From NCBI GenBank assembly GCA_028280455.1, contig JANQLT010000208.1:1-36377 (forward strand): a stretch of 36,377 bases of DNA, given 5' to 3'. The notes under the pieces are model-generated. The model was not told where the DNA came from. It searched no databases and saw only the letters and a program-made list of their open reading frames with translations. The DNA comes from Kiloniellales bacterium. GTDB taxonomy: Bacteria > Pseudomonadota > Alphaproteobacteria > Kiloniellales > JAKSDN01. The position numbers and the translations under genes are program-made. Shown piece by piece: positions 2,560 through 36,377 of the stretch. Position 1 is the stretch's first letter. Every line of letters starts with the position of its first letter.

Positions 2560-2612
2560 CGGCGATGAGAGCAACTCATCGCCGTCTGGTATGAGACGCG
2601 CCGTCGCGCGCC
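2560..2612. repeat. Hairpin repeat family C, copy 1
   Basis: A perfect 10-bp stem (CGGCGATGAG and CTCATCGCCG, loop AGCAA) starts 8 bases after the ABC exporter stop codon. It is followed by GTCTGG and a GCGCGCCC-containing tail. A related copy in the same orientation lies at 34259-34318. Position and structure suit a transcription-end or mRNA-stabilising hairpin for the exporter gene, but the recurrence elsewhere shows it is a dispersed element. Confidence 0.7.
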
Positions 2613-2613
2613 C

Positions 2614-2740
2614 AGAGCGTTTTCCGCTCGGACGGCACCGGCCCGCTCCCCCTCCCGGCCACCCACGGCAGTATCCTGTTGGGTGGCCGGGAGGGGGAGC
2701 GGGCCGGCGCCGTGATTCCGCGTCAGCGGAAAACGCTCTA
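2614..2740. repeat. Long palindromic repeat family A, complete copy
   Basis: This 127-bp near-palindrome has 15-bp perfect ends (AGAGCGTTTTCCGCT at 2614-2628 and its complement at 2725-2739). Inside is a perfect 28-bp stem (2638-2665 with 2680-2707) around a 14-base loop, CGGCAGTATCCTGT. It lies between the convergent ABC exporter and response regulator genes, and its last bases supply the response regulator stop codon. A second copy runs into the window end at 36281-36377 and a half copy is at 3288-3323. No coding sequence is inside, so if mobile it would be a non-autonomous element. Confidence 0.85.
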
Positions 2741-3139
2741 GCGGCAGCCGAGATCCGGGCGACGCCCGGTCAGGGGATTCAAGCAGCCGGCGATGGTGTT
2801 GCGCAGGACCTGGCCCTCGACCGGCTTCGACAGCGCCCTATGGGCGCCCAGCTTGGTCGCCATGGACAGGAAGTCGGTCGAGCGGATCATCGAGCCGCCG
2901 GACATGGCGATGACGCAGAGCGCCGGCTGGCTGCGCTTGAGATCGCGAATCGTCTCGAAACCCTCCTTGATCGGCATCAGGAGGTCGACGATGGCGATAT
3001 CGAAGGGGTGCCGCTCCACGCGCTCCAGCGCGCTTTGGCCCTCATAGGCCGTCACGACATCGTGGCCGTCATTGGCGAGAAAAAGCTCCAGGGCCTCGCA
3101 GATCAAAGGATCGTCATCGACCACCAGAATGCTCGCCAT
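2738..3139 (-). CDS. Single-domain response regulator (CheY-like receiver)
   Basis: A 133-residue receiver domain with no output domain. The acidic pocket is VVDDDP (D8-D10), the phospho-acceptor is D52 (IVDLLMP), the switch residue is S80 (AMSGG) and the conserved Lys is K105 (LSKP), so phosphorylation should be intact. I chose the ATG at 3139, preceded by GGGGG at 5 bases, over an in-frame ATG 21 bases upstream that lacks a ribosome binding site. Such proteins relay phosphate to or from a histidine kinase or phosphotransferase, and no kinase gene is in the window. The gene is divergent from the PAS_5 gene. Its stop codon lies inside repeat 2614-2740 and half of the same repeat sits upstream. 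The partner is unknown. Confidence 0.9.
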   Translation of the reverse strand: MASILVVDDDPLICEALELFLANDGHDVVTAYEGQSALERVERHPFDIAIVDLLMPIKEGFETIRDLKRSQPALCVIAMSGGSMIRSTDFLSMATKLGAHRALSKPVEGQVLRNTIAGCLNPLTGRRPDLGCR

Positions 3140-3287
3140 GCCGCCCCCACTACCATTCACTGCAAAAATAATCCTGAACTCGCGCGATTCGTTGTATCAG
3201 TTCAAAAGCTTATACACATCTTGAACGACCGACCAAGATTTTACGCAGGCCGCCCCGCCGTGGATCTCCCCGTGGATCGCGCGGCGC

Positions 3288-3323
3288 TAGAGCGTTTTCC
3301 GATCGGACGGCACCGGCCCGCTC
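3288..3323. repeat. Half copy of palindromic repeat family A
   Basis: Thirty-two bases (3292-3323) are identical to the left arm of the copy at 36281: outer end GCGTTTTCCGATCGGACGG, then the first part of the long stem. The match stops after CCCGCTC and unrelated GC-rich sequence follows. With the full copy at 2614-2740 it brackets the response regulator gene, both left arms pointing the same way. Confidence 0.8.
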
Positions 3324-4149: not shown

Positions 4150-4302
4150 AAACGAACCGTCCCCTCACCCGGCTCCGGCTAAGCTCGGCTGCGCCTCACC
4201 AAGCCTGCGCATCCCTCTCCCCCGTCGGGGGAGAGGGCTGTGGAGGCTTAGCGAAGCCATAGGCTGAGCTTAGCCGGAGCCGGGTGAGGGGGCGGTTCGT
4301 TT
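4150..4302. repeat. Repeat family B, copy 1, with 40-bp terminal inverted repeats
   Basis: The ends 4150-4189 and 4263-4302 are inverted repeats of 40 bases with two mismatches, starting AAACGAACCG and including CCCTCACCCGGCTCCGG. The centre holds a hairpin of CCCTCTCCCCC and GGGGGAGAGGG at about 4212-4237. The element fills most of the 331-base gap between the convergent PAS_5 and MotB-like genes. It has no open frame of its own and looks like a small non-autonomous element. The rest of the gap (4303-4431) shows nothing else recognisable. Confidence 0.8.
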
Positions 4303-22654: not shown

Positions 22655-23632
22655 ATGCCGATCGGGCTCCTCCTTTCGACCCTGCTGCACGGCACGATCT
22701 TCGTCATCGTGATCTTCGGGCTGCCGGTTTTCTCTGACCCGCCGGACTTCGCGCCGCCGATCCCGATCGAGGTGATCACCGAGGAGCCGCCGCTCGAGGA
22801 GGCCGAGCCGATTGCCGAGCCCGAGCCGGAACCGGAGCCCGAGCCGGAGCCCGTGGTCGAGGATGCGCCGGAGCCGATCCCCGAGCCGGAGCCCGAGCCG
22901 GTCGCCGCGCCGCAGCAGCAGGTTGCCGAGCTGCCGCCGCCGACCGAGAGCCCCGAGGCGCTGCTGCCGCCCGAGCCCGAGCCGGAGCCGGAGCCCGAGC
23001 CGGAGCCGATCGTCGAGCGCCTGGAGGAGCCGGAGCCGCAGGCCGAGCCCGAGCCCGAGGCGGAGCCCGAGCCGCTCAGCCAGCCGGAGCCGGAGGTCGC
23101 GCCCGAGCCGGTCGAGGAGCCCCGGCCGCCCTCGCCGCGGCGCAAGCCGGACGTCAAGGTCGCCCTGCCGGAGCCCGAGCCGGAGGCCGAGACCCAGCAG
23201 GACCCCTTGGCCTCGATCCTGCGCAACGTCGAGAAGCTGCGCGAGCAGCCGCAGCAGCAGCCGACGCAGACCCAGCAGGCCGAGGCGCCGAAGCCGCCTT
23301 CGCAGAGCCAGCCGAGCGCCATCGAGGTCAATGCCGTGGTCGGCGAGATCCGGCGCCAGCTCCAGGCCTGCTGGCGGATCGAGCCGGGCGCGCGCGACGC
23401 CGAGGACCTGGTCGTGCGCATCAAGGTCAATCTCAACCCGGACGGCTCGGTGCGCCAGGTCGAGATCATCGACGCCCAGCGCATGATGGCCGACGCCTTC
23501 TACCGCAGCGCCGCCGAGAACGCCCGCCGGGCGATCCTGAGCTGCAGCCCCTTCGACCTGCCGCTGTCGCAGTTCGAGATCTGGCGGGAAATGACCTTGA
23601 ACTTCGATCCGCGTGCCATGTTCGGTGGATGA
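22655..23632 (+). CDS. tolA: Tol-Pal protein TolA, Pro-Glu-rich type
   Basis: 325 residues. The single membrane helix starts at the N-terminus ([20 protein letters not shown]) with S8 and H12 spaced as in the Ser-His motif that contacts TolQR. From about 40 to 190 is an extended linker of Pro-Glu repeats in place of the Ala-Lys helix of enteric TolA. Residues about 225-325 form the C-terminal TonB/TolA-like domain ([42 protein letters not shown]). It spans the periplasm to reach Pal and TolB. The repeat linker is encoded by GC-rich tandem codons and may vary in length between strains. EF-P and YebC, encoded nearby, would help translate its proline runs. Confidence 0.92.
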
Positions 23633-33122: not shown

Positions 33123-33302
33123 CACCCTCACCCTCCCACCGCTGCGCGGCGGGCCCCTCCCTCTCCCCTCAAGGGAGAGGGGCTATTCAGAGGCCCTGCC
33201 ACACCCATCTTCCCCTCTCCCCCGTCGAGGGAGAGGGATGCGCAGCCTTGGCGAGGCGACAGCCGAGCTTAGGCGGAGCTGGGTGAGGGGGCGGATCGTT
33301 CG
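33123..33302. repeat. Repeat family B, copy 2 (rearranged)
   Basis: The part 33213-33302 (CCCTCTCCCCCGTCGAGGG through GGGTGAGGGGGCGGATCG) matches the reverse complement of the left half of the copy at 4150-4302, with scattered differences. The left part (33123-33190) is different and has its own hairpin, CTCTCCC and GGGAGAG. It occupies the glmM-thiD gap and leaves about 30 bases for the thiD ribosome site. Confidence 0.75.
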
Positions 33303-34151: not shown

Positions 34152-34258
34152 TCGCGGCGGCCCTGTGGCCGTCTTGTGTCCATCACAAATTCGAGAAGCG
34201 CAGAACGGCACCCGTCCCGCGGCGATCCGGCAGCATGACTCGCGCGTAGTGACTCATA

Positions 34259-34386
34259 CCAGACGGCGATGAGTGGAACTCATTCGCGGTCTGGCAAGCG
34301 CGACCGCGCGCCCGCAGCGAAGCGAGGAAAAGCCTGCGTGGCGTCTGAACGCTTACAGTCTGCGACGAGTTTCACTCATCGCAGAC
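34259..34386. repeat. Hairpin repeat family C, paired copy
   Basis: The first hairpin (34259-34294) has CCAGACGGCGATGAGT against ACTCATTCGCGGTCTGG with two irregularities, and is followed by the GCGCGCCCGC tail as in copy 1 at 2560. The second (34358-34386) is a 13-bp stem, GTCTGCGACGAGT with ACTCATCGCAGAC, opposite in sense. They enclose about 63 bases. The thiD-mlaC gap (34152-34487) contains no credible gene; the 79-residue frame across it is repeat sequence. Confidence 0.75.
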
Positions 34387-36258: not shown

Positions 36259-36280
36259 AGCGACAGGCCTCGGCGCTCGC

Positions 36281-36377
36281 TAGCGCGTTTTCCGATCGGA
36301 CGGCACCGGCCCGCTCCCCCTCCCGGCCACCCAATAGGATACTGCCGTGGGTGGCCGGGAGGGGGAGCGGGCCGGTG
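36281..36377. repeat. Palindromic repeat family A, copy cut by window end
   Basis: Outer end GCGTTTTCCGATCGGACGG, then the same 28-bp stem as copy 1 (36306-36333 with 36348-36375) around a 14-base loop, ATAGGATACTGCCG. The loop matches the reverse complement of the copy 1 loop at 13 of 14 positions, while the outer left end is in the same orientation as in copy 1. The right outer end lies beyond the window. Confidence 0.85.

Follow-up and report, generated by a model that had tools for sequence, protein, structure and literature searches.

The 14-nt loop of an interspersed palindromic repeat lies in either direction relative to the two distinguishable ends of the repeat throughout the genome of a Kiloniellales bacterium. 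Template switching during replication is the probable cause of this loop inversion, and we put the probability of this reading at about 0.6. The window (the whole stretch of 36,377 nucleotides that was analysed) is one entire contig of a 5.94-Mb, 241-contig assembly and ends within the second of two copies of the repeat. The features of both copies, and of a solo half of the same family, are listed below with the basis of each assignment in brackets.

2612–2741, plus strand: copy 1, a complete palindromic element with the L tip on the left, the R tip on the right and outer CCAG...CTAG (sequence, relatives in the genome, folding)
2612–2633, plus strand: L tip of copy 1, CCAGAGCGTTTTCCGCTCGGAC; family consensus CTAGAGCGTTTTCCGATCGGAC (sequence, family comparison)
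2637–2664, plus strand: left 28-bp arm of copy 1, the same in both window copies (sequence)
2666–2679, minus strand: 14-nt loop of copy 1, CGGCAGTATCCTGT (minus strand: ACAGGATACTGCCG), in the minority orientation relative to the tips; locus L031, typed RL (sequence, typing)
2681–2708, plus strand: right 28-bp arm of copy 1, reverse-complementary to the left arm except at 1 mismatched position (sequence)
2709–2741, plus strand: R tip of copy 1, GCCGTGATTCCGCGTCAGCGGAAAACGCTCTAG (sequence)
3287–3322, plus strand: solo L-half belonging to this family, CTAGAGCGTTTTCCGATCGGACGGCACCGGCCCGCTC, which lacks both the hairpin core and the R tip (repeat comparison, genome pattern)
36280–36377, plus strand: copy 2, with the L tip CTAGCGCGTTTTCCGATCGGAC on the left and the right arm cut by the contig end (sequence)
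36304–36333, plus strand: perfect 30-bp left arm of copy 2 (repeat comparison)
36334–36347, plus strand: 14-nt loop of copy 2, ATAGGATACTGCCG, in the majority orientation relative to the L tip; locus L114 (sequence, typing)
36348–36377, plus strand: 30-bp right arm of copy 2 (repeat comparison)

A 151-bp copy 1 query retrieved at least 40 aligned relatives from the same genome, and copy 1 folded as a single hairpin (z = -12.7). The original prediction described the two window copies accurately. The perfect 28-bp arm that it reported as common to both (ACCGGCCCGCTCCCCCTCCCGGCCACCC) is identical in each, both copies have the same left outer end (left tip TCGGACGGCACC), and the loop is reversed between them: once loop 1 is reverse-complemented (ACAGGATACTGCCG), 13 of its 14 bases agree with loop 2. 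A match this good or better has a chance probability of ~1.6e-7. Because copy 2 is without the right tip, which in copy 1 contains GTGATTCCGCGTCAGCGGAAAACGCTCTAG, the two copies alone were not decisive. The terminal CTAG of copy 1 (2738–2741) is also the source of the TAG stop codon of a convergent open reading frame (2738–3160, minus strand). The solo L-half at 3287–3322 stops at CCCGCTC. Elsewhere in the genome several further solo halves terminate close to this base, an agreement suggestive of a preferred end or breakpoint.

A loop-plus-stem pattern gave 143 matches in the genome, which is an upper bound on the number of copies because contigs that meet in the element overlap and may show one copy twice. 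The element is ~130 bp long and carries CTAGAGCGTTTTCCG at either end, as expected of the terminal inverted repeats of a MITE-type nonautonomous element. Its consensus runs from the L tip (CTAGAGCGTTTTCCGATCGG) through a ~33-bp near-perfect arm (ACGGCACCGGCCCGCTCCCCCTCCCGGCCACCC), the 14-nt loop (AATAGGATACTGCCGT or its complement) and the other arm to the R tip (GTGATTCCGCGT(G/C)AGCGGAAAACGCTCTAG). As a repeat it is palindromic, interspersed and non-coding, and its inverted termini end in CTAG. The difference between the L and R tips gives the loop a reference direction within the element, which is unchanged when the whole element is reversed. No direct repeats or target duplications were found outside the CTAG; the target-site duplication might consist of CTAG or of TA itself. 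The search of Rfam gave no match above the gathering threshold (sub-threshold matches were chiefly to microRNA-like hairpins), the viral_contigs search gave no match to the element, and a literature search for the loop or arm sequence returned nothing relevant. The interspersed palindrome family is new, and its general kind is known. Intrastrand-triplex repeats, as described in the available part of the source (PMC4666352), were set aside because the arms give two strands without a third.

To relate the loop to the ends, 130 non-identical loop contexts were read, and both tips were typed where visible. Among the internal copies, i.e., those with unique sequence on both sides, the loop ran one way relative to L and R in 41 and the other way in 16, and one copy had two R tips. 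Two further copies seem to have two L tips; both are located where a contig ends and may represent fold-backs of the assembly. The whole-genome tabulation thus gave no single fixed relation between loop and ends, and the loop inversion, suggested from two copies as a possible genome-wide property, is indeed such a property. Reverse insertion of the whole element, already doubted as an explanation of the reversed loop, fails because both loop/tip relations occur in many copies with both ends visible.

The G/C site of the R tip was distributed 22/23 with one loop direction and 11/9 with the other, and the other polymorphisms common in the tips and outer arms were equally frequent in both. No pair of sites among the tip sites and the loop showed convincing linkage. 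The sole association concerned site 25 of the L tip (5/21 minority vs 1/47 majority copies, p = 0.007 uncorrected). Divergence from the consensus did not differ between the loop directions (p = 0.47), and the minority share in classes of rising divergence was 7/12, 4/27, and 10/29, with no steady or significant trend. Eleven pairs of copies shared at least two rare variants, and the loops were opposite in 4 of these pairs. The copy tree is nearly star-like, with loop direction varying freely on it. As loop orientation is essentially unlinked to the tip polymorphisms and has no clear age trend, a single flipped founder is unlikely. A steady rate of in situ flipping from one starting state is not supported, because the ~70:30 ratio of orientations does not rise steadily by divergence. 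The G/C polymorphism of the R tip itself (window 2720–2730, CGCGT[G/C]AGCGG) is ~50:50 family-wide and unlinked to neighbouring sites.

Loops at orthologous sites were compared in genomes of the genus Minwuia (g109), comprising three multi-copy relatives and one genome with two copies (G258, G350, G144, and G099), among which G258 is a single 4.29-Mb contig. The naming of the group as Minwuia rests on G099, a named Minwuia MAG, and on G447 (listed at the same places), which was counted in the genus. Comparison of flanks identified nine shared sites, and the loops were opposite between species at four of the nine. In the clearest case, a glyA-nrdR-type spacer (L269/L260 vs L237), the flanks and the stem were colinear in G099, G258, and G144, and the loop alone was inverted: the G144 loop matched at 5/16 positions as read and at 12/16 once inverted. 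The gene 3' of this spacer begins MRCPYCQNADTQVKDSRP; read by eye, the downstream gene is probably nrdR and the upstream gene is glyA-like. A loop-only inversion was also found between L271 and L213, where the flanks were colinear up to the stem and the loops matched at 6/16 positions as read and 14/16 once inverted. At these two clean sites the spacer was inverted with arms and flanks unchanged, as template switching predicts. Opposite loops were seen between L183 and L221 as well, but in rearranged surroundings, which makes this a weaker case. At L187 vs L218, the neighbouring tail had switched sides too, and a larger segment between outer repeats was therefore inverted. The inverted unit at this orthologous site is a ~100-bp repeat, the whole of which has turned between GGTCCCC/GGGGACC repeats on its outer sides. 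The inverted orthologous loops carried 2–4 substitutions besides, and loop classes recurred between sites, so that exchange with other copies fits as well. These comparisons show that the loop of this hairpin core has inverted in place, in a genus other than that of the window.

In template switching, a nascent strand that had copied one arm would switch to the complementary (sister) template at the identical arm, would then read the wrong strand through the loop, and would jump back within the second arm. The outcome would be an inverted loop, arms made identical, and untouched flanks. Variants in the arms were mirrored within the same copy 8 times, compared to 3.2 expected from arm shuffling (p = 0.007), and some of these variants were private to one copy and present in both its arms (L039 and L074). 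These mirrored variants are the trace that homogenization of the arms by template switching should leave. Nine short forms lacked the hairpin, and several of them were joined within the arms. A right-arm residue (AGCGGGCC or AGCGGCCC) was kept in 4/9 of the short frames, and three others fit deletion between GGCCCG-type direct repeats of the arms, as does the commonest junction; the short frames therefore look like deletion products. The loop-only inversion, the mirrored arm variants, and the hairpin deletions are all indicative of strand switching at this hairpin. Template switching at inverted repeats in yeast gives inverted spacers and homogenized arms (PMC8604942), loop inversions are found in rRNA genes, bacterial ones included (PMC8794818), and hairpin inversions recur in the trnH-psbA spacers of chloroplasts (PMC2903610).

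The inversion of the core between its arms, as originally proposed, is thus borne out in place at orthologous sites of the related Minwuia hairpin family. No other species of the genus of the window's genome was seen among the genomes searched, and in situ inversion in the window's genome is therefore extrapolated from Minwuia. We infer that the same inversion in situ produced the state of this genome, that DNA polymerase template switching was its agent, and that the inversions recurred many times. Among the three mechanisms offered at the outset (homologous recombination, site-specific recombination, and hairpin flipping during replication), hairpin or strand switching in replication fits best, and site-specific recombination drew no evidence.

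Ectopic gene conversion between dispersed copies is the main rival and a serious one, although on balance it is doubtful. The arms are inverted repeats common to all copies, so recombination through them would be blind to orientation, and a loop could be replaced in either direction. The genome holds >100 copies with near-identical 30-bp arms, and conversion would explain why tip sites and loop are almost unlinked, as if reassorted, and why loop classes differ at orthologous Minwuia sites, with or without inversion. The one RR and the two contig-end LL copies also resemble an end exchange. However, exchange through one arm should produce LL and RR copies often, and they are rare (1/58 internal copies). 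The private mirrored variants of L039 and L074 point instead to copying inside one hairpin, and loop divergence at shared sites was just moderately above flank divergence. The descent of two old subfamilies from a single ancestral flip, with both forms then spread by transposition, was already disfavoured and is improbable: the ~70:30 mixture and the weak association of L-tip site 25 (5/21 vs 1/47, p = 0.007 uncorrected) would agree with it, but the other common tip polymorphisms are equally frequent in both orientations, at least two rare variants are shared in few cases (11 pairs, 4 with opposite loops), and loops differ at orthologous Minwuia sites.

A hairpin core acting as an independent mobile unit and entering an older tip frame either way round is very unlikely. 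Such a unit would account for the unrelated outer sequences in Pelagibius, Roseospira, Minwuia, and the sphingomonad plasmids and for the existence of frames without a core, but these short frames look like deletion products (4/9 with a right-arm residue, three with GGCCCG-type junctions), and loop-only inversion was found at one site between species. An assembly artefact, in which a wrong loop was joined via palindromes common to >100 loci, is less likely still, even though many contigs break inside the element. Contig ends overlap repeatedly by exactly 99 nt, from which an assembly k of 99 follows; on each side, one such 99-mer covers both the loop and some unique flank, so that the orientations were not the assembler's choice and misassembly is unlikely. 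Both orientations are also present mid-contig, and the one-contig genome G258 is among those with orthologous differences. About as unlikely is a regulatory switch in which a dedicated site-specific recombinase inverts the loop. Both orientations exist, as a switch requires, but two recombinase sites need far more than 14 bp to synapse in cis, for which the 14-bp segment is far too short, and loop direction is independent of gene direction.

According to a simple GC3-based gene call, the copies were mostly intergenic and adjoined 103 gene 3' ends vs 67 5' ends; a bias toward gene 3' ends is usual for such repeats. Loop direction had no relation to the direction of neighbouring genes (13 vs 14 co-directional cases), and this comparison gave no sign that the inversion acts as a switch. 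Because the directions were balanced, loop orientation was rejected as a transcription-linked signal.

An exact loop search over named genomes, with the window's own genome left out, found the core hairpin in Roseospira navarrensis, a Minwuia thermotolerans MAG, and a Pelagibius MAG, the Pelagibius copy being identical to that in G057, a member of the window's order. By this match the window probably shares its order with Pelagibius. The core was also found by BLAST on plasmids of Sphingopyxis, Novosphingobium, and Sphingomonas. Stems vary among these groups by paired changes and the outer ends differ, whereas the loop keeps a form like AATAGGATACT (AGGATA-type). Judged by these matches, the loop sequence is conserved across distant alphaproteobacteria despite its free orientation. 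The R tip was absent from the other genomes among the 143 searched. A search for flips within species among the sphingomonad plasmids turned up no close relative bearing the same site. Three sphingomonad plasmids (L230, L231, and L232) carry the core with different outer ends, and the related plasmid L277 has the empty site. It is possible, if rather speculative, that loops are continually inverted and exchanged among dispersed copies via the orientation-blind arms, at a rate high enough to leave clonal populations mixed; the loop would then be recognized both ways, so that its sequence is conserved.

The small inversions of chloroplast trnH-psbA spacers, with loops of 25–27 bp and arms of at least 18 bp, recur also within species (PMC2903610). 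They resemble the present case in that a short loop is inverted between perfect inverted repeats, but they affect single orthologous plastid loci rather than a multi-copy bacterial interspersed repeat. The yeast inverted repeats (PMC8604942) likewise combine an inverted spacer with equalized arms, but the changes there are 2–5 substitutions within short spacers of single-copy genes, in contrast to the 14-nt loop of a multi-copy repeat. Loops are also inverted at perfectly paired stems of rRNA and microRNA hairpins (PMC8794818), bacterial rRNA included, but these are mostly four-nucleotide loops in functional RNA genes. The family shares with MITEs, ERIC, RIME, and REP/BIME its small size, non-coding and palindromic nature, enrichment at gene 3' ends, and high copy number. 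It differs from them in its own sequence, in the lack of a GTAG/CGTC tag, in a loop orientation independent of the ends, and in a core common to alphaproteobacterial groups with different outer ends. REP/RAYT repeats are palindromes of 20–40 bp with a GTAG or CGTC tag, as far as the available part of the source describes them (PMC3733652), whereas the present element is ~130 bp long with CTAG at both ends.

Inversion of hairpin spacers is usually seen locus by locus, and the family presents this known process in an unusually countable form. More than 100 copies with asymmetric tips are a natural counter of inversions, by which their rate and the effects of arm length and replication direction become testable. 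Where palindromic repeats are aligned or assembled, substitutions will appear in false clusters.

The window contains further repeats. A second palindromic family, with a CCCTCTCCCCCGTCGGGGGAGAGGG core and AACGAACC..CCTCACCCGGCTCCGGC arms, has two window copies (4150–4302 and 33213–33300). A third small repeat, ATGAGAGCAACTCATCGCCGTCTGGTATGAG, forms an inverted pair (2565–2595 and 34253–34283), one member of which directly adjoins copy 1. A long run of imperfect Glu/Pro-rich coding repeats occupies positions 22773–23201.
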